Assembly (NCBI GenBank): GCA_016840035.1 | Contig: JAEOTC010000038.1 | Location: 62,001 to 126,000 of the forward strand | DNA: 64,000 nucleotides | From: Candidatus Hodarchaeota archaeon | GTDB lineage: Archaea; Asgardarchaeota; Heimdallarchaeia; Hodarchaeales; Hodarchaeaceae | Reading direction: 5' to 3' | Part shown: positions 23,230 to 34,169 of the stretch, in pieces | How positions within the stretch are numbered: position 1 is the first letter of the stretch | How the letters are laid out: every line of letters starts with the position of its first letter | Program-made: the position numbers and the translations under genes | The notes under the pieces: model-generated | What the model was told of the DNA's origin: nothing | The model's input: the letters and a program-made list of their open reading frames with translations, nothing else | Databases searched by the model: none

Positions 23230-24408
23230 TCATAAAACAGCACTCTCAAGCAAGTTCTTTGTCTTTAAGGCCATCATGTATTCTTCATCGGTAGGAATAA
23301 CCACAACTTCTATTTTGGATTCTGAAGATGAAATAATCACTTCTTCCTCTCCATTAGCTCCCTCGTTCTTTGAGATATCAATGGAAACATCTATACTATT
23401 CAGTCCCTTCACTATCAGTCTTCGAAAGTAAGAAGATCTCTCACCTATCCCACCTGTGAACACAATCGCGTCTAATCCTCCCAAAGCAATAAGGTACGCT
23501 CCAATATATTTCCGAATTCTGTAGGCAGCCATCTGAACAGCTAATTCTGCAGAGTGACTCCCCTTCAGAGCACTTTCCTGGATATCCCGCATATCTCTAA
23601 AATTCCCTGTAATTCCCAATAAGCCACTCCTTGAATTTAATTCTTGATCGATTTGATCAATGGTCAAATTTCCAGAACGCATCATAGCTAGTATTAAACC
23701 TGGGTCTATATCCCCCGATCGCGTGCCCATTATTAGGCCCTCTAAAGGAGTTAACCCCATACTTGTATCAATTGATTTTCCATCATATACAGCTGTTACT
23801 GAAGCTCCATTCCCAAGATGTAAGACGATTAGCTTTTTAGATTTCTTTAAACTAAGTAAACTTCTCGTTCTATTAGTCACATATTCAATAGATGTTCCAT
23901 GAAACCCATATCTCCGGAAAGAATTTTCCTCATACCACTTTCCTGAAATCGCATATCTGTATGCATATTCTGGAATCGTAGCATGAAAAGAAGTATCAAA
24001 AACTGCAATATGAGGAATAGCTGTTAATTTTTTTTTACTAGCTCGGATTCCAATTAGATTAGCGGGATTATGAAGTGGGGCAAGCTTTGATAGTTTTTCT
24101 ATCTGAGATTCAACCTCAGTATCAATGATCAATTCTCTTCGGAACTGTTCTCCCCCATGTACTACACGGTGAGCTACAGCTTTAATCGTATTAATGTCGA
24201 AGAATGTTAAGACATAATCTACAGCCTCTTCATGAGTAGCACAACTTATTACCTTGGTAACTTCCTCCTCCTTGCTTTTATGATATATCTTTGGTTCAGG
24301 GAGGCCTATTCGTTCCACTAATCCTTTAGCTATTAGCTGTTCTTTCTCCATGTTATAGATCGAATATTTTAGAGAGGAAGATCCTGAATTTATCGTTAAA
24401 ATTGTCAA
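23230..24408 (-). CDS. ackA: Acetate kinase, last gene of BMC operon
   Basis: Converts acetyl phosphate and ADP to acetate and ATP. NSGSSSLKYSIY at the start, HRVVHGGE (about 83-90), FDTSFHAT, RRYGFHGTS with the catalytic His/Arg region, HLGNGASV and FTGGIGE are all present. 392 residues is normal. AckA has not been a general archaeal enzyme (most archaea use ADP-forming acetyl-CoA synthetase), which fits lateral gain with the microcompartment genes. It follows the aldolase gene by 10 bases and takes the product of PduL. No targeting peptide seen, so it likely acts in the cytosol. Confidence 0.97.
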   Translation of the reverse strand: MTILTINSGSSSLKYSIYNMEKEQLIAKGLVERIGLPEPKIYHKSKEEEVTKVISCATHEEAVDYVLTFFDINTIKAVAHRVVHGGEQFRRELIIDTEVESQIEKLSKLAPLHNPANLIGIRASKKKLTAIPHIAVFDTSFHATIPEYAYRYAISGKWYEENSFRRYGFHGTSIEYVTNRTRSLLSLKKSKKLIVLHLGNGASVTAVYDGKSIDTSMGLTPLEGLIMGTRSGDIDPGLILAMMRSGNLTIDQIDQELNSRSGLLGITGNFRDMRDIQESALKGSHSAELAVQMAAYRIRKYIGAYLIALGGLDAIVFTGGIGERSSYFRRLIVKGLNSIDVSIDISKNEGANGEEEVIISSSESKIEVVVIPTDEEYMMALKTKNLLESAVL

Positions 24409-24418
24409 AAAGACCCCT

Positions 24419-25867
24419 CTAGTAGGTACCTTTAGGTGTATCAGTCCCTTTTACAATAGCAATGGATGCTGATGCACCAATCCTAGTTGCTCCAGCGTTT
24501 ATCATCTGCTCTGCAATCTCGTGAGTTCTTATCCCTCCAGCTGCTTTTACACCCATTTCTGGACCTACTGTTTTTCTCATCAGAGCAATATCCTCAACTA
24601 ATGCTCCTGCAGTACTGAAACCTGTAGAAGTTTTAACAAAATCTGCTCCACTTAATTTTGTTAACAGACTACCTTTAACTATTTGTTCCTTGGTTAGTAG
24701 AGCAGTTTCAAGAATGACCTTTACTATGGCTTTCCCTGCAGCGGCATTTACTACCGCTTGGATATCCTCCCTAACTAAGTCATCGTTACCTGATTTCAAC
24801 GCTCCCACGTTAATAACCATGTCTACTTCATCTGCTCCATTTGCTACAGCATCTCGAGTTTCAATTGCCTTTACGGTGGGGGTAGTTGCTCCTAATGGAA
24901 ATCCAATTACAGTACATACTTTCACTGAGCTACTTTTCAAATATTTGGCTGCTTTTGCTACATTTGTAGGATTAATACATACTGATGCGAATTTATACGT
25001 TGCAGCTTCTTCACATAGTTGTTTAATCTCTTCTTCAGTTGCATCTGCACGGAGATTAGTATGGTCGATATACTGAGCAAGCTCCATATCATACCCATTT
25101 ATCCCTGTCTCAGAGGTAATTCTTGTTGCTCCTCCATTAACTAATGCTTTAACAGCAGCTTGAGACTTTCCATCTAATCCAATCTCTTTCCCTGAAGTCC
25201 CAATTGTGTATGATCGATCAGAGGTGGTTGGGATATAGGGAGAGGGTTCTTGATCAGTTATCTGATGAACATCAACAATTTTGATTCCCATAGTCCTTAA
25301 TTGATCAATAATTCCCTCAATACGTCTATTCATTGCAGGTGGGACTTGATCTTTCTCAATCTGACAACAGTAGATGGAATCATATGCTGCAATAACTGGT
25401 TTTCCATACATCAATCCAAATACTAGGGTTATAGTTCCCAAGGAATCTGCGTTCAAGGCCGCTACTTTAGCTGCAGTATTTAAGGATAATATAGGCACAT
25501 AAATAACATCTACCCGACTTAAAATATTGTCAAAAAACTGTTCAGAATAATCAGTAATAATTGTGGCTCCTTCAGAGACTTGTCTAATATCAGGTAAACC
25601 AATTATTTTTATTGCTGCACGAGTCATTACGATGTAAGTATTAGTATACGATTTTGAGATTTTTTCTATTTGGTGCATAACTTCATTAATCTCTTTATTC
25701 CCCCCACATAGTAGAATTAAAGCTGAGTTTCCTGAAGCTATTGTATAATTGATTTTCCGATTAGAAGTCTGTAAATTCGAATCGAACTGTTGTTTGGGAG
25801 CGAGATTATCTTGATCAAGCTTCCTCATCACTTCTTCAGTGATTTTCTGTATCATCTCATTACTCAT
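24419..25867 (-). CDS. deoC: Deoxyribose-phosphate aldolase with N-terminal targeting helix and flavoprotein-like domain
   Basis: Cleaves 2-deoxyribose 5-phosphate to glyceraldehyde 3-phosphate and acetaldehyde, the entry step of the compartment. Residues about 262-482 are Deo[15 protein letters not shown] (D349), the Schiff-base lysine K412 in VKTSTGF and K441 in KAAGGIRT. Residues 2-19 ([18 protein letters not shown]) form an amphipathic helix like BMC encapsulation peptides. Residues 40-205 are an extra alpha/beta domain resembling flavoprotein-like domains and the separate flavoprotein of this operon (31261-31980). DeoC is usually about 220-260 residues, so this is a fusion. Located between the BMC-P genes and ackA. 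Confidence 0.95.
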
Positions 25868-25887: not shown

Positions 25888-26178
25888 TTAACTTAATTCA
25901 GTTTGTTTTCCATCCACTTCAATATAATCAATAACACCTACTATTAATGCATCCACAGCGGCTTTGTCATTATGCATTATACCTCGTATAGAGTTACCTT
26001 CTCGGATAACAAGGACACAATCCCCGATTCCAGATTTGGCTACATCTAGAGCGATGATAGAAGGCTCAGTGAAATTTCCTTTCAGATCTATCGGACGTAC
26101 CACAAGTATTTTTCCGTTTTCATGACTCTCAGTTTTAATTGGAGCAACTACATTGCCGATTACTTTAGCAAGAATCAT
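25888..26178 (-). CDS. BMC-P shell vertex protein (EutN/CcmL family)
   Basis: Pentamer that caps the vertices of a microcompartment shell. AKVIGNVVAPIK at the start, KILVVRPIDL, ALDVAKSGIGDCVLVI and AVDALIVGVIDYIEVDG are the EutN/CcmL strand pattern. 96 residues is the usual size. Overlaps the start of the next shell gene by 4 bases on the same strand. One of three BMC-P genes here; the others are at 26175 and 30959. Confidence 0.96.
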   Translation of the reverse strand: MILAKVIGNVVAPIKTESHENGKILVVRPIDLKGNFTEPSIIALDVAKSGIGDCVLVIREGNSIRGIMHNDKAAVDALIVGVIDYIEVDGKQTELS

Positions 26179-26717
26179 TCTGTTTCACTTTCTACAATTT
26201 TTGGTTTAATTTCACGAATCTTTTTTGGTTTCTTCTTTCGAGTGGCCCTTTTTCTTGGTTTTGGTTTAACTACGGGCTTAATTTCTTCAACTACTTCGGG
26301 TTCCTCTACTTTCGTTTTCGGGATCGGTTCAAGTATCTCCTCTTTGGGAATTTCCCCGATTTCTTCATCTAGACTTATATCAACTTGTTTTAATGTTGCT
26401 GGAGGGGCCTTCTTCTTCTTTCTCTTCTGAGGTTTGCGTTTTGCACTTTTTGTAACATAATATTCCTCAATATATCCAACTATACACTCATCAATCGGAA
26501 CGAGTTCCTTTGGAAAGACAATAGCTGCCTCCTTTTTACTTACTACATACACAATATCTCCAGGTCCTGCAGTTTCAATGCCATCAGCGGCAACATATGG
26601 ACTTCCCAAGGGTTGAAGATTATCATCTAGACCTTGAACTACTAGAAGTCGGAGAGAATTTAATCCTGGATCTTTTGTTGAGGCAACAACATTCCCTATT
26701 ACTTTTCCAAGTTTCAT
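26175..26717 (-). CDS. BMC-P shell protein with long charged C-terminal tail
   Basis: Residues 1-87 are a EutN/CcmL pentamer fold (KLGKVIGNVVAST, LLVVQGLD, GIETAGPGDIVYVV, IDECIVGYIEEYYV). Residues 88-180 are a low-complexity extension: a basic block (KRKPQKRKKKKAPP), an acidic/proline middle (EEIGEIPKEEILEPIPKTKVEEP) and a second basic block (KPKPRKRATRKKKPKK). Bacterial BMC-P proteins rarely have such tails. It could tether the vertex to cargo, nucleic acid or membranes. Stop codon overlaps the following BMC-P start. Confidence 0.95.
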   Translation of the reverse strand: MKLGKVIGNVVASTKDPGLNSLRLLVVQGLDDNLQPLGSPYVAADGIETAGPGDIVYVVSKKEAAIVFPKELVPIDECIVGYIEEYYVTKSAKRKPQKRKKKKAPPATLKQVDISLDEEIGEIPKEEILEPIPKTKVEEPEVVEEIKPVVKPKPRKRATRKKKPKKIREIKPKIVESETE

Positions 26718-26721
26718 GTAA

Positions 26722-27180
26722 TCACGCTGATTTTAAATATTTCAATTCAATCTCGGAAATCTTATTTACTCTGGTCTCGTGTCTTCCACCACCGAAAGGA
26801 GTAGATAACCAAATCTTAACAATATTTTGCGCAATTCCTGGACCAATTACTCTCGCACCTAAAGTCAGGATGTTAGAATTATTGTGTTCACGAGCGGAAT
26901 TCGCAGTAAATTCATCCGTGCAAGGAGTTGCTCGAATTCCTTTAATTTTATTTGCTACAATTGCGCTAGCTACGCCTGTACCATCGATGAGAATCCCAAC
27001 GGATTCAACTGAGACTGCAACTGTTTGTGCTACTAATAATGCAATATCAGGATAATCCACAGGATCTGTAGAATAACAACCATAGTCCGCAACTTCGTAT
27101 CCTATTCCTTTCAGGAATTTTATCAGATCATTTTTGAGATGGAAACCACCATGATCCGATCCAATTATTATTTTCTTCAT
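26722..27180 (-). CDS. rpiB: Ribose-5-phosphate isomerase B
   Basis: Interconverts ribose 5-phosphate and ribulose 5-phosphate. RpiB/LacAB features: GSDHGGFHLK at 8-17, DYGCYSTDPVDYPDIA, GTGVASAIVANKIKGIRA with the active-site region and TLGARVIGP. 152 residues, normal. RpiB marks the sugar-phosphate-utilising type of microcompartment. It is placed between shell genes (BMC-T and BMC-P) of the same operon. No N-terminal targeting helix is seen, so location inside the shell is not certain. Confidence 0.95.
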   Translation of the reverse strand: MKKIIIGSDHGGFHLKNDLIKFLKGIGYEVADYGCYSTDPVDYPDIALLVAQTVAVSVESVGILIDGTGVASAIVANKIKGIRATPCTDEFTANSAREHNNSNILTLGARVIGPGIAQNIVKIWLSTPFGGGRHETRVNKISEIELKYLKSA

Positions 27181-27205: not shown

Positions 27206-27757
27206 TCAAAGCAGAGTTTTTACTAGATCTGGATGAGGAGCAGGAATTACAGCAGTGGATAATACTAATCCTTCTCCTTTTACACGATTAACCCCAGCAT
27301 CTACAGCTGCTCGCACGGCACCCACTTCTCCTGTTAAAACAACAAACGCCTTTCCACCTATTGCGCGACTCATCCGAATTTCGATTAACTGTACCTGCGC
27401 ACTTTTAACAGCTTCGTCACCAACCATGATCGCTGTAGGAGCAGAATAAGTTTCTACTACTCCTATCGCGCCTACTTTTTCAACTCCAGATGTACCCGCA
27501 ATTGCTGGAAAAACCTCAGGATGTATATTGGGAATTACTGTGTAATTTACTAAGGTTTCACCTGCTATTTCACTTCCAGCGATTAGAGAGCTTTGAACAG
27601 CTGCAACTGCTCCTTGAATAATGATTAAATATTTTCCAGGACATACTGGTGAGGCGAATAATAGCTCGACTTCTGCTGTTTTCGCTATTGTATCGGCACT
27701 CAGTATACCTCGAGCAATTACATTTGTTTCTAGAACTCCTATAGCACGCATTTTCAT
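27206..27757 (-). CDS. BMC-T tandem shell protein, PduT-like with pore cysteine
   Basis: Trimer-forming shell protein with two BMC domains (about 4-90 and 93-183). AIGVLETN and AIGVVETY mark each repeat; both end with VIPxxHP. The pore loop of repeat 1 is ASPVCPGKY with C39, matching the cysteine that binds a [4Fe-4S] cluster in PduT (TICPGKF). The second repeat lacks it. This implies an electron relay across the shell with the PduS-like protein. Follows the BMC-H gene and the hairpin at 27797-27820. Confidence 0.96.
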   Translation of the reverse strand: MKMRAIGVLETNVIARGILSADTIAKTAEVELLFASPVCPGKYLIIIQGAVAAVQSSLIAGSEIAGETLVNYTVIPNIHPEVFPAIAGTSGVEKVGAIGVVETYSAPTAIMVGDEAVKSAQVQLIEIRMSRAIGGKAFVVLTGEVGAVRAAVDAGVNRVKGEGLVLSTAVIPAPHPDLVKTLL

Positions 27758-27827: not shown

Positions 27828-28118
27828 TCAACCTTTCTTTGGGAGAATACTCTCAACTTCATCATGGGGTCGAGGAATTACATGAGCTGAGGTTAGTTCA
27901 CCAACTTTTCGTGCAGCGACTGCACCAGCTTCAACAGAAGCTTTCACAGCACCAACGTCACCTCTAACCATTACAGTAACAAAACCACCGCCAATAACTT
28001 CGCGTCCCATTAAATGAACGTTCGCTGCTTTCACCATAGCGTCAGCTGCTTCAATAGATGCAACTAACCCTTTTGTTTCTATCAATCCAAGTGCTTCTTT
28101 AGCCATTTTTTTCACCAA
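27828..28118 (-). CDS. BMC-H shell hexamer protein (PduA/EutM-like)
   Basis: Main facet protein. The sequence tracks bacterial PduA/Eut[28 protein letters not shown], the pore region [26 protein letters not shown] and [15 protein letters not shown]. Such closeness to bacterial proteins indicates lateral transfer. 96 residues. Pore loop is G-G-G in place of G-S-G of PduA. First of the shell genes after PduS; the hairpin after its stop may keep its message stable. Confidence 0.98.
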
Positions 28119-28130
28119 TTTTTTTGTCTT

Positions 28131-29456
28131 TTATTTTGTCTTTTCAATGACAATTTCTTGTCCAATTTTGCGAATAATTCCGCTAATACTAGCATGAATT
28201 ACTGCACCTAGTGACCCATCTGGAATCTTTCCTATGAGTGCACCTTTTTCAACCGAATCTCCTACTTTTACCGTTGGAATTGCAGGATCTCCGATATGTT
28301 GTTTGAGAGGGATGGAAACTTTTCGAATCTGTAATTTTCGTTTTCGTATTGGACATTCATGATTATAATTCAATAGATCCAATCGTGAAATTAATCTTTT
28401 TACAGGTAATTTTCGATATTCCCTCTCAGGATGAATCGATAATACTTTTCGATTATGAGTATTCTTTAAACCCTCTACCCTCAACTGTCCCTTTACTTCT
28501 GTCATCATTTTACATGGATCCAACCCCATAGGACATCCATAATATGTACAAGCTCCACATTCCACACAAAGGAATGTTCCCGTCATATAATCGGGTCTTT
28601 CTGGAGCACCCCATGCTATTCCTCGCATAACTTTGTCAGGATGTAATTCATGGCCCAATAAGAATCTAGGACAGACATCTGTACATAATTGACATCTTAT
28701 GCATGCTGCTTTGGTAACAATTACTTTGGATGAGATCCGTTCAGTTTTCATTCTGATTACAAAATGATTCTCTGGCAAAACAATTATTCCAGAAGTTAAT
28801 TTGGTAATAGGTTTTTTAGGGGCAATTACTGTACCCATCATGGGTCCATTTATCAATACTTGATAATCATCGATTGTAGCTCCCCCTGCAGCTTTTATTG
28901 CATCCTTTATTGAGGTACCAATTGGAAATTCCATCGTAGAGGGGTTTTTAACAGCGCCTGTTATGGTTACATAACGAGATACTATGGGATTTCCTTCAGC
29001 GGCCTCAGCTAGATTGATCAATGTATAGACATTATTTACTACGACTCCAATGTCAAGAGGGAGTCCACTTTCCGGAATTATTTTACCTAAAGCTTCATAA
29101 ACAAGAACATGTTCATCTCCAGCAGGATAAACATCATCGAGAAGGAATATCTCGATTCTGGAATCAGCTTTGACCACTTGTTTAAGCTTCTTAATTGCAG
29201 TTTTATACTTCCTTTTTACAGCGATTATTCCTCGCTTCGCCCCAGTGGCTTTCATTCCTAGCTGTAATCCAGTTATTAATTTTCCTGGACAGGTTGTCAT
29301 TAATTGCTGATCCACTCTTAATAATGGTTCACATTCAGCTGCATTAACTATAAACGTATCTACTTTCGCAGAAAGCTTCACATGTGTAGGAAAACCAGCT
29401 CCACCAGCTCCAACTATTCCAGAATTTCGTGCCATGTCTGCTATTTCGGAGCTCAC
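28131..29456 (-). CDS. pduS: PduS-like flavo-iron-sulfur protein (RnfC-related)
   Basis: Electron-transfer protein of microcompartments (cobalamin reductase in Pdu systems; RnfC/NuoF-related). GIVGAGGAGFPTHVKL at 13-28, NAAECEPLL, a Rossmann/SLBB-type middle and two cluster motifs CIRCQLCTDVCP and CVECGACTYYGCP for [4Fe-4S] binding; the C-terminus has a biotinyl-like hairpin (VKVGDSVEKGALIGKI). No diol dehydratase or cobalamin gene is present, so here it more likely reoxidises NADH made by the aldehyde dehydrogenase and passes electrons to the Fe-S site of the BMC-T protein. 12 bases before BMC-H. Confidence 0.93.
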   Translation of the reverse strand: MSSEIADMARNSGIVGAGGAGFPTHVKLSAKVDTFIVNAAECEPLLRVDQQLMTTCPGKLITGLQLGMKATGAKRGIIAVKRKYKTAIKKLKQVVKADSRIEIFLLDDVYPAGDEHVLVYEALGKIIPESGLPLDIGVVVNNVYTLINLAEAAEGNPIVSRYVTITGAVKNPSTMEFPIGTSIKDAIKAAGGATIDDYQVLINGPMMGTVIAPKKPITKLTSGIIVLPENHFVIRMKTERISSKVIVTKAACIRCQLCTDVCPRFLLGHELHPDKVMRGIAWGAPERPDYMTGTFLCVECGACTYYGCPMGLDPCKMMTEVKGQLRVEGLKNTHNRKVLSIHPEREYRKLPVKRLISRLDLLNYNHECPIRKRKLQIRKVSIPLKQHIGDPAIPTVKVGDSVEKGALIGKIPDGSLGAVIHASISGIIRKIGQEIVIEKTK

Positions 29457-29483: not shown

Positions 29484-30911
29484 TCAAATGATTCTAAAAG
29501 CATCCACTAGAGTACAACGTCTTTGACGTGTAAAAGTTCTTGCTGAGGTAAGTCCTTCTCCCGTTGGTCCTGCAATTGTCATAGTAGTATAGCCTTCCCC
29601 TCCGAATCCAATCCCAGCAAAGGAGGGGGCATTTTTGACAAAAATTGTAGTTTCGATATCTTTTGCCACAAGACTCATATTTCCAACTGAATCGCTCCAC
29701 ATCATTGCTGTGTGTTTGAATCCATGTTCAGCCTTCTTTGCTTTTTGCAAAGCTTCTTCTATTGATTTCACTCTAACTATTGGTAAGACTGGCATCAACA
29801 TTTCAGATATTACGAAGGGATGTTCATCATCAGGCACCTCTGCAATTATCAACCGGATATTGTCACTAACCTGCACTCCGATTCCCTCAAGAAGTATTTT
29901 GGCATCTTTTCCGATGAAGTCCCTGTTTACTATGGGAAATCTCCCTTTCTTTCCTTTGAAAACGAGATTAGTCAGTTGGACTATCTGATCTCCAACAATT
30001 TCATATGCACCATAATTCTTCATTTCTGCTTTTAATCGATCAGTGATGACATCAAATGCGAATACTTCTTTTTCTACAATACATACAATATTATTATCAA
30101 AACTTGCGCCTTCTACTATTCCTCGGGCTGCTTTTTGAATATTTGCAGTATCATCAACTATTACAGGAGGATTTCCTGGTCCTGCACATATCGCTTTTTT
30201 TCCAGATTGCATTGCAGCTTTTACTACTGCACTTCCTCCTGTTACAACTAGACACCGAATCTTTTTGTGTGTCATTAAAGTCTGGGCTGACTCAATCGTA
30301 GGGGATATGGTTGATGTAAGAACATTTTCTGGTCCCCCCGCTTCGAGAATTGCCCTATTCAATAATCTCACAGCTTCATTACTTGCTCTTTTAGCTGATG
30401 GATGAGGATTAAATACTACGCTATTTCCTGCCGTAACCATTGATATTCCATTGTTAATTATCGTTGCTGTTGGGTTTGTTGAAGGAGTAATTGACCCAAT
30501 TACGCCATAAGGAGCCATTTCAACAAGTGTTAATCCTTTATCACCCGTCCATGTATTTGGTACCAGATCTTCTAAGCCTGGAGTTTTTCGAGCACAGAGC
30601 AAATTCTTTGCTACTTTATCCTCTAATCTCCCTAGACCAGTTTCTTGGATTGCTAATTCAGCTAGATATCGTGCATGTTTAATAGCGGAGTCACGCATCG
30701 ATTGTATGATTTCTTTTCTTCTCTCCAAAGATAAATCCATTAGTGCTACTTGACTCTTTTCCGCAGCCTCTATTGCCTGTTCAATGTCCTGGAATATTCC
30801 TCCACCTGCACTAGTGGGAATATTCTCCAATCCTGAATAGACTTGATAAGCTCTTATTTTCTGTACAACAGAATTGACGATTTTTGCAATTTGTTGTTCG
30901 TCATATGACAT
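29484..30911 (-). CDS. CoA-acylating aldehyde dehydrogenase (PduP/EutE-like)
   Basis: Oxidises acetaldehyde with NAD+ and CoA to acetyl-CoA. ALDH fold: GVIGSITPSTNPTAT (about 136-150), TGGSAVVKAAMQSGKKAICAGPGN (about 224-247), FDNNIVC with nucleophile C277, the PduP/EutE signature. Residues 4-20 (DEQQIAKIVNSVVQKIR) are an amphipathic helix typical of BMC targeting peptides, linked by a Gly-rich stretch (TSAGGG). 475 residues. Catalytic core enzyme of the compartment; no alcohol dehydrogenase is encoded beside it, so NADH is not recycled by ethanol formation here. Confidence 0.97.
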   Translation of the reverse strand: MSYDEQQIAKIVNSVVQKIRAYQVYSGLENIPTSAGGGIFQDIEQAIEAAEKSQVALMDLSLERRKEIIQSMRDSAIKHARYLAELAIQETGLGRLEDKVAKNLLCARKTPGLEDLVPNTWTGDKGLTLVEMAPYGVIGSITPSTNPTATIINNGISMVTAGNSVVFNPHPSAKRASNEAVRLLNRAILEAGGPENVLTSTISPTIESAQTLMTHKKIRCLVVTGGSAVVKAAMQSGKKAICAGPGNPPVIVDDTANIQKAARGIVEGASFDNNIVCIVEKEVFAFDVITDRLKAEMKNYGAYEIVGDQIVQLTNLVFKGKKGRFPIVNRDFIGKDAKILLEGIGVQVSDNIRLIIAEVPDDEHPFVISEMLMPVLPIVRVKSIEEALQKAKKAEHGFKHTAMMWSDSVGNMSLVAKDIETTIFVKNAPSFAGIGFGGEGYTTMTIAGPTGEGLTSARTFTRQRRCTLVDAFRII

Positions 30912-30958: not shown

Positions 30959-31249
30959 TTATTTTCGATAAGTTTCTTTTCCATTTATTTGGATAAAATC
31001 TATGATAGCTTGGATCGTTGCATCTGTGGGTTTATCCTTGGTCATTGCAGTTAAACGAGATGAACTTCCAGTAACAACTAGTACTAATTCGTTCTCTCCC
31101 GCACCAACTGCATCAATTGCCACGAAAGGAGAACTCTCTGGTTTTAAATCAGTCATATCCACTGGTTGTACTATCATTAATTTAAAGCCTTTAATACTGG
31201 CATCCTTCTCGGTACTTACTACATTTCCTATTACTTTACACACTTTCAT
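30959..31249 (-). CDS. BMC-P shell vertex protein, third copy
   Basis: EutN/CcmL-type pentamer: CKVIGNVVSTEKD, LMIVQPVD, FVAIDAVGAGENELVLVV and IDFIQINGKE. 96 residues, no tail. Three different BMC-P genes in one locus suggests mixed vertices or special roles. Sits between the aldehyde dehydrogenase and the flavoprotein genes; start is 11 bases after the flavoprotein stop. Confidence 0.95.
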   Translation of the reverse strand: MKVCKVIGNVVSTEKDASIKGFKLMIVQPVDMTDLKPESSPFVAIDAVGAGENELVLVVTGSSSRLTAMTKDKPTDATIQAIIDFIQINGKETYRK

Positions 31250-31260
31250 GTAAATATCTC

Positions 31261-31980
31261 CTAAATCTTAATTATCTTTATATCAAGCATTTTAGCTTTT
31301 TCTTGTGCTAAGGGGGTAATAATAGTTGAATGGGGTACAAATATTTCGTGAATTTTACCTTTTAATCCCTCTAAATAATCCTCGGTAATTAAATCTGGTA
31401 TAGCTGGAGTATGTTTGACAAATTGATCTTCTAAGTCCTCTATGTCAACAAGTCTGAATCCCATTTCGATTAAAGTAGATAAATATCGACTCAGATTATT
31501 AGTTAACATACCCGATGGGCCATAGTCAAATGTTAAATCTGTGGGAGGAAAAGGTGTTACAATATAAACAGGAATTTTAAATAACAACCCTTGAAGTAAT
31601 AAATTAACAGTTGAATTGGAATCTTCAAATTTTGTTATTTTTTTTGCTATTTCAAAACTAAAGGCACCAAACATAATTGATTTAAGATTACTGTAAAAAT
31701 TTAGGCAAAAATCTCCAAAAGGATTAACTAAAACGTCCATTGTGGGAATTGAACCTGCTTTTGTGGTTATTTTCTTAGCCTGGTCAATTTCATCCTTTGT
31801 CCAGATCAGGACTTGCATTTTTTGTTCGGCTAATCTAATTAGGGATTGTAATAATTCATCCAATCCTTGTCCCATATGGGTTAAGACACCTAGGACATCG
31901 TAAGGACCTAGGTTATGCTCATTCTTGAGAACACTCTTAACTTGCTGTGTAACGAGTAATTCGAGCTCTTTCTCATTCAT
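31261..31980 (-). CDS. BMC-associated flavoprotein-like protein
   Basis: 239-residue alpha/beta protein. Residues 1-19 (NEKELELLVTQQVKSVLKN) look like an encapsulation helix. The body (20-239) has VLGVLTHMGQGLDELLQSL, MQVLIWTKDEIDQAK, SIMFGAFSFEIAKKI, GLLFKIPVYIVTPF and HSTIITPLAQEKAK, which resembles flavoprotein (PPCDC-type) domains often found in BMC loci, and shares its layout with the N-terminal domain of the DeoC fusion here. Function of such proteins is not established; FMN binding is predicted by family only. Followed by BMC-P. Confidence 0.7.
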   Translation of the reverse strand: MNEKELELLVTQQVKSVLKNEHNLGPYDVLGVLTHMGQGLDELLQSLIRLAEQKMQVLIWTKDEIDQAKKITTKAGSIPTMDVLVNPFGDFCLNFYSNLKSIMFGAFSFEIAKKITKFEDSNSTVNLLLQGLLFKIPVYIVTPFPPTDLTFDYGPSGMLTNNLSRYLSTLIEMGFRLVDIEDLEDQFVKHTPAIPDLITEDYLEGLKGKIHEIFVPHSTIITPLAQEKAKMLDIKIIKI

Positions 31981-31995
31981 GATGCTTCACTCTTG

Positions 31996-32316
31996 TTAAT
32001 CTCTTCCAGGATCCTCTTCTACGCTTGAAGTTCGACTTCTGACTTTCTCAATAAGATCAACCGTCACCTGATCAGGTCTTGGAATTACATTAGTTAATAA
32101 ACCACAGGAGATCTGACGTAGTTGGACTTTTGCTGCTTCAATTGCTTCACGGACAGCAGCGACCTCTCCCTCAATTATCACAATAACCAATCCCCCTGAA
32201 ACACGTTTTAAGGAAATAAGGCTCACATCTGCGGTTTTCATGGCCGTATCTGTTGCCACAATGGCTCCTATCCGACCGCATGTCTCCATAAATCCTAAAG
32301 CTTTCATTAAAATCAC
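31996..32316 (-). CDS. BMC-H shell protein, second type
   Basis: Single BMC domain: KALGFMETCGRIGAIVATDTAMKTADVSLISLKRVSGGLVIVIIEGEVAAVREAIEA with a C-terminal HIPRP-like NVIPRP and a short acidic tail (SSVEEDPGRD). Diverged from the PduA-like copy at 27828 and with a different pore (VSGG), so it may be a minor facet component or select a different metabolite. The start overlaps the stop of the citrate synthase-PduL gene by 4 bases. Confidence 0.93.
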   Translation of the reverse strand: MILMKALGFMETCGRIGAIVATDTAMKTADVSLISLKRVSGGLVIVIIEGEVAAVREAIEAAKVQLRQISCGLLTNVIPRPDQVTVDLIEKVRSRTSSVEEDPGRD

Positions 32317-34169
32317 CTGAACGGAGAATAAGATCCTTCTTTTAAATCCAAAATCAGACTCCCCATTTCTCCCGTATTCAGTGCAAGAGCATTACCCTCG
32401 TCAAGGTCTAAATGGAGCTCCAAATTATAATCCGGGTGAATTCTAACCATGATCTCGTCTAGGATTCCAGCTCGGGTTCCAGGAAATTGAACAGCAACTA
32501 TCTGTCGATCTGACACATTTAACCTTTGCGCATCTTTTGGTGACATGTGGATGTGTCGCGCTGCGAAAATGACTCCCTTATCCAAAGTGATAGCTCCCTT
32601 TGGACCAATTATGTGTACTCCTGGAGTATCTCTTAAATCTCCTGATTGACGTGTTGGTGGATTAATACCTAATACATAACCGTCACTCCGAGATATTTCA
32701 ACTTGAGTTTCGTCTCTGAAGGGGCCAAGAATACGAACTCCATAGATGGCTCTTTTGGGGCCGATTAGATCAACAACTTCTTTGCATGCATACTGTTTTG
32801 GTTGAGTTAAGGAATTAAGGGGAGTTAAAACTGCTTTTTCTCCAAATAATTTGTGAAAATCGGCTTTTGAAAGGTGGATGTGACGTGCAGATAAGGATAC
32901 TGGAATTAAATGATCATCGAATACTTTAGTCAGCTCATCGGTGACTAATCTCTTCACTAGTTCTCCAGCTGCTGACTGTGTACTTCGTTGTGAAATGGGT
33001 TGATATTCACAACCTAATGGACCGCAATATCTTCCTACATATTCAGCAGAGGGTCTATAAATCACTGGTTTGACGGTAGGAGTTTCGGGATACTTCTCTT
33101 CTAAAACATGAGCAGTCCAACCAGCGACTCTCGATGTAGTAAAAATCGGTGTAAAGAGTTCAACTGGGATATTTAAGCTTGTATATACCGTGGCACCATA
33201 TAGATCCACATTAGGATATATTCCACGATTTTTTCGCTTCTTAAATTCTTTTTGAGTAATCTCAACCAACTTATTGGTAGTTTCATACATCCATTGAGCT
33301 AATCCACCCTTCCTTCTCACAAGATCTGCAGCCATTTCCTTCAATATTTTGGCTCTCGGATCTGTAGTTTTATATACGGCATGTCCCATCCCCATAATTC
33401 GTTTACCTTCATTAAATCGATTTTTGACCCATTCCTCAGCACTTGAGACTTTCTTAATCTCCATTAAGCTTTCATAAACTAAATGATTAGCTCCCCCATG
33501 ATACATCCCTGATAAAGAACCAATGGCACCAGAAATAGATGCATATAGATCCGCTCCAGTAGATGCAATGACCCGAGCTGTGAATGTGGAAGCATTGAAA
33601 GAGTGTTCTGCATGTAGAATTAGTGTGACATCAAAGATCCTTGCTTCTTCATCAGTTGGGATACTCCCATGAAGCATGTAGAGGAAATTTGATGCATATT
33701 TTAGATTCTTATTTGGAGCGATTGGTTCTTTATTGCTACGAATTCTCTCCCATGCGGTCACAATAATAGGAAGCCGAGCTATTATTCTAATTGCAATATT
33801 TCGATCGGATTCTCTTTTTCCAGTCCCGATCTCGTTGTTGTATCCTGCTAGTAAAGCTAATGAAGATTGGAGTACACTCATAGAAGGGGTATTCTTTGAG
33901 GTTTTCTGTAAATGTGAGATTAATTGTGGTGGTAAATCCTGATTTGAAATTATTGCGTTCTTAAAACTCTCCAATTGATCAAAAGAGGGGAGGTTTCCGT
34001 ACAGAAGTAAGTAAACTACCTCTTCGTAGGTTGAATTTCTTGCTAACTCATTAATGTCATAACCTCGGATAAATAGATTGCCTTTTTCACCTTCTATAAG
34101 ACAAATATTTGTATCCGCAACCTCAACACCGCGAAGTCCTGTTGATTTGTGGCTATGTTCTTCAATCAT
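32313..34169 (-). CDS. Citrate synthase-PduL (phosphotransacylase) fusion, first gene of BMC operon
   Basis: One 618-residue polypeptide with two complete enzymes. Residues about 10-395 are citrate synthase with the catalytic triad present: H224 in YHGGAN, H263 in GMGHAVYK and D322 in YPNVDLYG, plus SRVAGW and RPSAEYVG; a methylcitrate synthase is the alternative. Residues about 422-618 are PduL phosphate acyltransferase with the metal-binding HIH pairs (430-432 and 539-541) and HLDLDEGNA. The linker (400-418, AAGELVKRLVTDELTKVF) resembles a BMC targeting helix, as found at the N-terminus of ordinary PduL. Both domains use acyl-CoA and release CoA, so the fusion would recycle CoA by two routes. 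Fusion not known to me elsewhere. Confidence 0.93.
   Translation of the reverse strand: MIEEHSHKSTGLRGVEVADTNICLIEGEKGNLFIRGYDINELARNSTYEEVVYLLLYGNLPSFDQLESFKNAIISNQDLPPQLISHLQKTSKNTPSMSVLQSSLALLAGYNNEIGTGKRESDRNIAIRIIARLPIIVTAWERIRSNKEPIAPNKNLKYASNFLYMLHGSIPTDEEARIFDVTLILHAEHSFNASTFTARVIASTGADLYASISGAIGSLSGMYHGGANHLVYESLMEIKKVSSAEEWVKNRFNEGKRIMGMGHAVYKTTDPRAKILKEMAADLVRRKGGLAQWMYETTNKLVEITQKEFKKRKNRGIYPNVDLYGATVYTSLNIPVELFTPIFTTSRVAGWTAHVLEEKYPETPTVKPVIYRPSAEYVGRYCGPLGCEYQPISQRSTQSAAGELVKRLVTDELTKVFDDHLIPVSLSARHIHLSKADFHKLFGEKAVLTPLNSLTQPKQYACKEVVDLIGPKRAIYGVRILGPFRDETQVEISRSDGYVLGINPPTRQSGDLRDTPGVHIIGPKGAITLDKGVIFAARHIHMSPKDAQRLNVSDRQIVAVQFPGTRAGILDEIMVRIHPDYNLELHLDLDEGNALALNTGEMGSLILDLKEGSYSPFR

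Follow-up and report, generated by a model that had tools for sequence, protein, structure and literature searches.

The closest described relatives of the locus analysed here are the sugar-phosphate-utilising (SPU) microcompartments, whose loci combine a DeoC-type aldolase, RpiB, an acylating aldehyde dehydrogenase (AldDH), PduL, a PduS-like protein and BMC-H, BMC-T and BMC-P shell proteins, with acetate kinase in some of them (PMC8217296, PMC4207490). The SPU isomerase is catalogued as RpiB-type, pfam02502 (PMC8217296), and the word citrate is absent from the main text of both catalogue papers. Metabolosomes are described as freeing CoA through a phosphotransacylase (PMC4784909, PMC4207490), and the encapsulation peptides (EPs) described so far sit at protein termini (PMC11157265). 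A survey of 2019 reported BMCs to be absent from archaea (PMC6620236), and we found no papers on BMCs in Asgard archaea in a literature search whose coverage excluded subscription journals for the most part and bioRxiv preprints altogether.

The window, a stretch of 64,000 nucleotides, comes from a Hodarchaeota (Asgard) archaeon, and the relatives compared are MAGs of Candidatus Hodarchaeota or Heimdallarchaeota. The order Hodarchaeales has been put forward as the sister group of eukaryotes (PMC10307638). The window carries an operon of 13 genes on the minus strand, headed by a fusion of citrate synthase (CS) and PduL and running down to position 23230. Its features are as follows.

32313-34169, minus strand: CS-PduL fusion (CS about residues 11-391, linker 392-421, PduL 422-618); PF00285 and PF06130 over cut-off
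32907-32996, minus strand: interdomain linker of the fusion, residues 392-421, an internal helix like a PduL-type EP (helix 400-420 in the model)
31996-32316, minus strand: BMC-H shell protein 1 (PF00936, E 4e-21), overlapping CS-PduL by 4 bp
31261-31980, minus strand: conserved 239-aa protein with EP-like N-terminus; weak TIGR02536 ethanolamine-utilisation match
30959-31249, minus strand: BMC-P vertex protein 1 (PF03319, E 2e-29)
29484-30911, minus strand: AldDH with EP-like N-terminal helix (NF011927, 660 bits, over cut-off)
28131-29456, minus strand: RnfC/PduS-like flavin iron-sulfur protein (TIGR01945 rnfC over cut-off; PF01512, Fer4, SLBB)
27828-28118, minus strand: BMC-H shell protein 2 (PF00936, E 8e-29)
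27206-27757, minus strand: BMC-T shell protein, PduT-like (two PF00936 domains; TIGR02526 below cut-off)
26722-27180, minus strand: RpiB-type sugar-phosphate isomerase (TIGR01120 and NF004051 over cut-off)
26175-26717, minus strand: BMC-P vertex protein 2 with Lys/Arg-rich C-terminal tail (PF03319, residues 1-83)
25888-26178, minus strand: BMC-P vertex protein 3 (PF03319)
24419-25867, minus strand: DERA-type aldolase with EP-like N-terminus and an extra N-terminal domain (PF01791, residues 264-465, E 1e-17, over cut-off)
23230-24408, minus strand: acetate kinase, AckA (PF00871, E 3e-133)

The operon thus holds DERA, RpiB, AldDH, an RnfC/PduS-like protein and AckA together with two BMC-H, one BMC-T and three BMC-P genes. 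Judged by its gene content, it encodes a microcompartment of SPU type, since the defining pair of DeoC and RpiB is present. It differs from the described SPU systems in its archaeal host and in having PduL fused behind CS. The 239-aa protein is found in all seven readable loci; it has no Pfam family match, and its hhalign comparison with the N-domain of DERA gave a weak result. The tail of BMC-P 2, of about 90 residues rich in Lys/Arg, is shorter in genomes G045, G049 and G051, and nucleic-acid or cargo binding is a possible role for it.

The fusion is a single open reading frame of 618 aa, and the plus strand across the same interval is crowded with stops. The sequence-only reading had given exactly these coordinates, with no strand, and had described a polypeptide, encoded at the start of a BMC operon, in which both enzymes look intact; the near full-length profile matches and the overlap with the BMC-H gene bear this description out. 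The CS half is complete (PF00285 Citrate_synt, residues 11-373, profile positions 1-356 of 357, E 1e-122), as does the PduL half (PF06130 PTAC, residues 423-597, profile positions 1-175 of 176, E 2e-70). No NCBIfam citrate synthase cut-off was reached by the CS half. The catalytic residues named earlier were correct: the triad H224, H263 and D322 is kept in all eight copies of the genus, and the two HIH motifs lie at residues 430-432 and 539-541. The CS residues H189, H224, H263, R272, D322, R347 and R372, whose roles are assigned from known CS structures and by aligning the sequence to 1iom and 1aj8, are invariant in the seven fusions and present in the split copy of G049.

On the PduL side, compared with the R. 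palustris PduL structures 5CUO/5CUP (sites from PMC4784909), the zinc ligands H48, H50, E109, H157, H159 and H204, as well as Gln107, Glu109 and Ser127, are present in 8/8 archaeal copies. The phosphate-contacting Arg103 is found in the window copy and five others (6/8). The archaeal proteins differ from R. palustris PduL in that the N-terminal helix lies inside the fusion and in that G050 and G051 lack Arg97 and Arg103. An AlphaFold2 model built from a 46-row alignment (mean pLDDT 86.6, pTM 0.61) shows two confident domains with a low-confidence join that contains the helix 400-420. Its best PDB matches in Foldseek are citrate synthases; for the PduL half, 5CUO is matched at the sequence level. 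Purifying selection acts on both halves, with NG86 omega of about 0.03-0.16 for CS and 0.06-0.19 for PduL in pairs with unsaturated dS, NG86 being a crude method and many pairs being saturated.

Within the phylum, the BMC shell family and PduL matches above the PF06130 cut-off were each found in the same 8 of 228 genomes, all belonging to one genus of 12 genomes; in the rest of the 228, no PduL above cut-off and no BMC shell gene was found. All genomes compared are MAGs and incomplete. Seven of the eight BMC-bearing genomes, that of the window included, carry the fusion, and in G049 the two enzymes are split into adjacent genes. Because the same frame of about 610-620 aa recurs in seven genomes, we ruled out a stop-codon or assembly accident. 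The synteny of the operon is kept across the genus together with its neighbours on both sides, and contamination is unlikely, since independent MAGs have these neighbours around the locus. The operon is interrupted in G050, whose record contains runs of N. The records of G049, G050 and G051 (CP070760.1, CP070665.1 and CP070695.1, respectively) are single 'chromosome' records with runs of N, and they therefore look like contigs joined in silico.

In G049, a gap of 47 bp separates a CS of 406 aa from a PduL of 234 aa; each of the three forward frames is closed by stops in this gap, and the locus is free of N. Accordingly, fusion is not required, given that this genome keeps the enzymes as separate proteins. 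In the PduL phylogeny, G049 is nested with the fused G045 copy. The split as the ancestral state is disfavoured by PduL, for which a single clade of all fused copies fails the AU test (p 0.0115); CS alone leaves such a clade standing (p 0.25) and does not decide, and the concatenated operon tree is unresolved. The simplest reading of these trees is that the G049 split is most likely, though not provenly, a secondary fission. Neither this split version nor the strand nor the archaeal host had figured in the sequence-only reading.

That reading knew of no such fusion, and our searches agree: the CS-PduL pair was found only in this genus, among the 228 phylum genomes and about 1,240 bacterial genomes from four phylum samples (297, 399, 297 and 247) searched with PF06130. 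No CS-PduL fusion occurred among the long frames examined in the bacteria (G307, G325 and G397 left out; for Bacillota, among the matches listed). Instead, the partners of bacterial PduL in long frames, named by eye, are AckA, cNMP-AckA or a GspE_N-like domain. Frames of the AckA-PduL or cNMP-AckA-PduL kind were seen by eye in L228 (5013-7343), L229 (5489-7312), L231 (872-3175), L105 (8234-10648), L232-L234 and L239-L241, and in L235-L238 PduL follows a domain that spans about 240 residues and by eye is GspE_N-like. The AckA fusions resemble the archaeal one in that PduL is the C-terminal half and the partner is an enzyme of acetyl metabolism. They differ in that AckA catalyses the step that follows PduL, whereas the archaeal partner is a competing CoA-releasing enzyme. 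Among 80 loci, a CS match stood beside PduL only in seven archaeal loci. The sample of bacterial SPU loci is thin, and since only one bacterial locus (L094) is clearly SPU, the absence of CS beside bacterial PduL says little about bacterial SPU BMCs. The CS half groups in the tree with type II citrate synthases of Desulfobulbus and Desulfoluna, which are 45-46% identical to it and share its YCGxxGC C-terminal tail. These differ in being free-standing, with no BMC gene noticed alongside; the Desulfoluna CS adjoins an ORF resembling aconitase by eye. The tree gives no support to an origin of the CS half from the genus' own PrpC-type enzyme.

We consider that the fusion is probably a bifunctional lumen enzyme of the SPU-type microcompartment, with two competing exits that would free CoA. 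The linker aligns with the EP-like N-terminus of the free-standing G049 PduL and with the N-terminal helices of bacterial PduLs. On the other hand, this EP-like helix is internal rather than terminal and moderately amphipathic, with a hydrophobic moment of 0.43-0.60 that is only moderately above background; the EP-like N-termini of AldDH and the DERA-type aldolase reach 0.68 and 0.67. The fusion might instead lie outside the shell or at its face, tying acetyl-CoA to two cytosolic fates with the linker as a spacer. The moderate amphipathicity, the low confidence of the helix in the model and the terminal position of EPs in the literature (PMC11157265) would fit such an arrangement, but we regard it as unlikely, considering that the fusion heads a BMC operon, overlaps a shell gene by 4 bp and has a linker positionally homologous to PduL EPs.

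In the proposed lumen, AldDH would convert acetaldehyde and CoA to acetyl-CoA and NADH, and electrons may exit via the RnfC/PduS-like protein and the PduT-like BMC-T, whose VCPGKYL cysteine is kept in 7/7 loci. The acetaldehyde-derived acetyl-CoA proposed in the sequence-only reading agrees with the operon, which should make acetyl-CoA through DERA and the acylating AldDH. By the PduL exit, acetyl-CoA and phosphate would give acetyl-phosphate and free CoA, followed by acetate and ATP through AckA. By the CS exit, the same acetyl-CoA would condense with imported oxaloacetate, whose entry through the shell is an assumption, to give citrate and free CoA, so that the acetyl unit would leave the shell as citrate while CoA stayed behind.

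A CS half that runs in reverse, cleaving citrate to supply PduL and AckA and so yield ATP, or that acts mainly on another acyl-CoA, such as propionyl-CoA to 2-methylcitrate, seems to us quite unlikely. The TIGR01800 subfamily spans citrate and 2-methylcitrate synthases, and Salmonella PduL prefers propionyl-CoA (PMC4784909), which would suit another acyl-CoA. However, acetaldehyde is the expected operon product, and G043 and G051 hold a separate PrpC-type enzyme: the other CS of G043 sits in a prpB-prpC-prpD cluster, and that of G051 clusters with it and has 2-methylcitrate synthase as its best model match. Against the reverse direction, the CS equilibrium lies strongly towards citrate, and no AckA was seen in G050/G051.

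This sister pair bears most directly on the two exits. In the G050/G051 PduL, Arg97 is replaced by Cys and Arg103 by Lys, and 6-9 residues are deleted, while the CS catalytic residues are intact; Arg103 is kept in 24/24 bacterial PduLs compared. Acetate kinase was found in exactly the six genomes with PduL Arg103, and no AckA match was found in G050 or G051 (MAGs 71% complete with N joins, and 96% complete, respectively). Because the pair forms one lineage, the pattern counts as one event. The altered PduL continues to show purifying selection (omega about 0.10) and is thus not simply decaying; its function may have changed rather than been lost. These genes suggest that the acetyl-phosphate exit has been lost or changed in this lineage while CS remains. 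Since AckA was not found, Arg103 is gone and CS is intact there, CS may be a working alternative CoA recycler, which strengthens the earlier proposal of a second CoA-releasing route. A broader reading, which we hold tentatively, is that CoA is recycled by condensation, the acetyl unit leaving as citrate via an encapsulated CS, with the phosphotransacylase exit having become optional and, in one lineage, having been left without its acetate kinase and the key arginines of PduL.

Both CS and PduL form oligomers, and CS dimers joined to PduL could have a mainly structural role, cross-linking cargo into a core for shell assembly. The selection that maintains the G050/G051 PduL half despite its altered active site would agree with this, but no CS catalytic residue varies within the genus and the pair is split in G049, and we consider a mainly structural CS very unlikely.

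Outside the shell, citrate from the CS exit could be used by aconitase, or ATP-citrate lyase (ACL), where present, would return acetyl-CoA and oxaloacetate. Aconitase matches occur in all 12 genomes of the genus, partial in G050. In G046 C153, an open frame of 24,317 aa is reported around the aconitase match, possibly a masked or N-filled stretch. Domain content confirmed ACL in G000 and G051. Matches resembling ACL or citryl-CoA lyase, some of them looked at individually, occur in the other BMC genomes, and no ACL was seen in G043 or G047. The eight BMC-bearing genomes yielded no further canonical full-length CS, with the additional copies of G043 and G051 classed as PrpC-type and that of G049 interrupted by N. 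Because no other canonical CS was found and ACL-like or citryl-CoA-lyase-like genes occur in all BMC members, a citrate export shuttle is plausible. Overall, the sequence-only interpretation is partly supported.

The BMC-less relatives G048 and G044 have DERA with aldehyde ferredoxin oxidoreductase at the chromosomal site of the BMC, and G042 has DERA alone (L223 5895-8564, L225 3630-6282 and L226 4487-5188 are the BMC-less DERA loci). DERA at the same site fits acetaldehyde as the intermediate, and the BMC operon and the DERA/aldehyde ferredoxin oxidoreductase pair are perhaps two alternative ways of dealing with acetaldehyde.

In summary, the locus breaks, in sequence, both of the patterns described for metabolosomes and for archaea: it is an archaeal BMC, and its head gene adds a second CoA-releasing enzyme. 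The G050/G051 lineage offers a natural comparison through which the roles of the two halves can be tested. If the proposed route is true, then together with cytosolic ATP-citrate lyase it would form a prokaryotic counterpart to the citrate shuttle of mitochondria, in the order proposed as the sister of eukaryotes.
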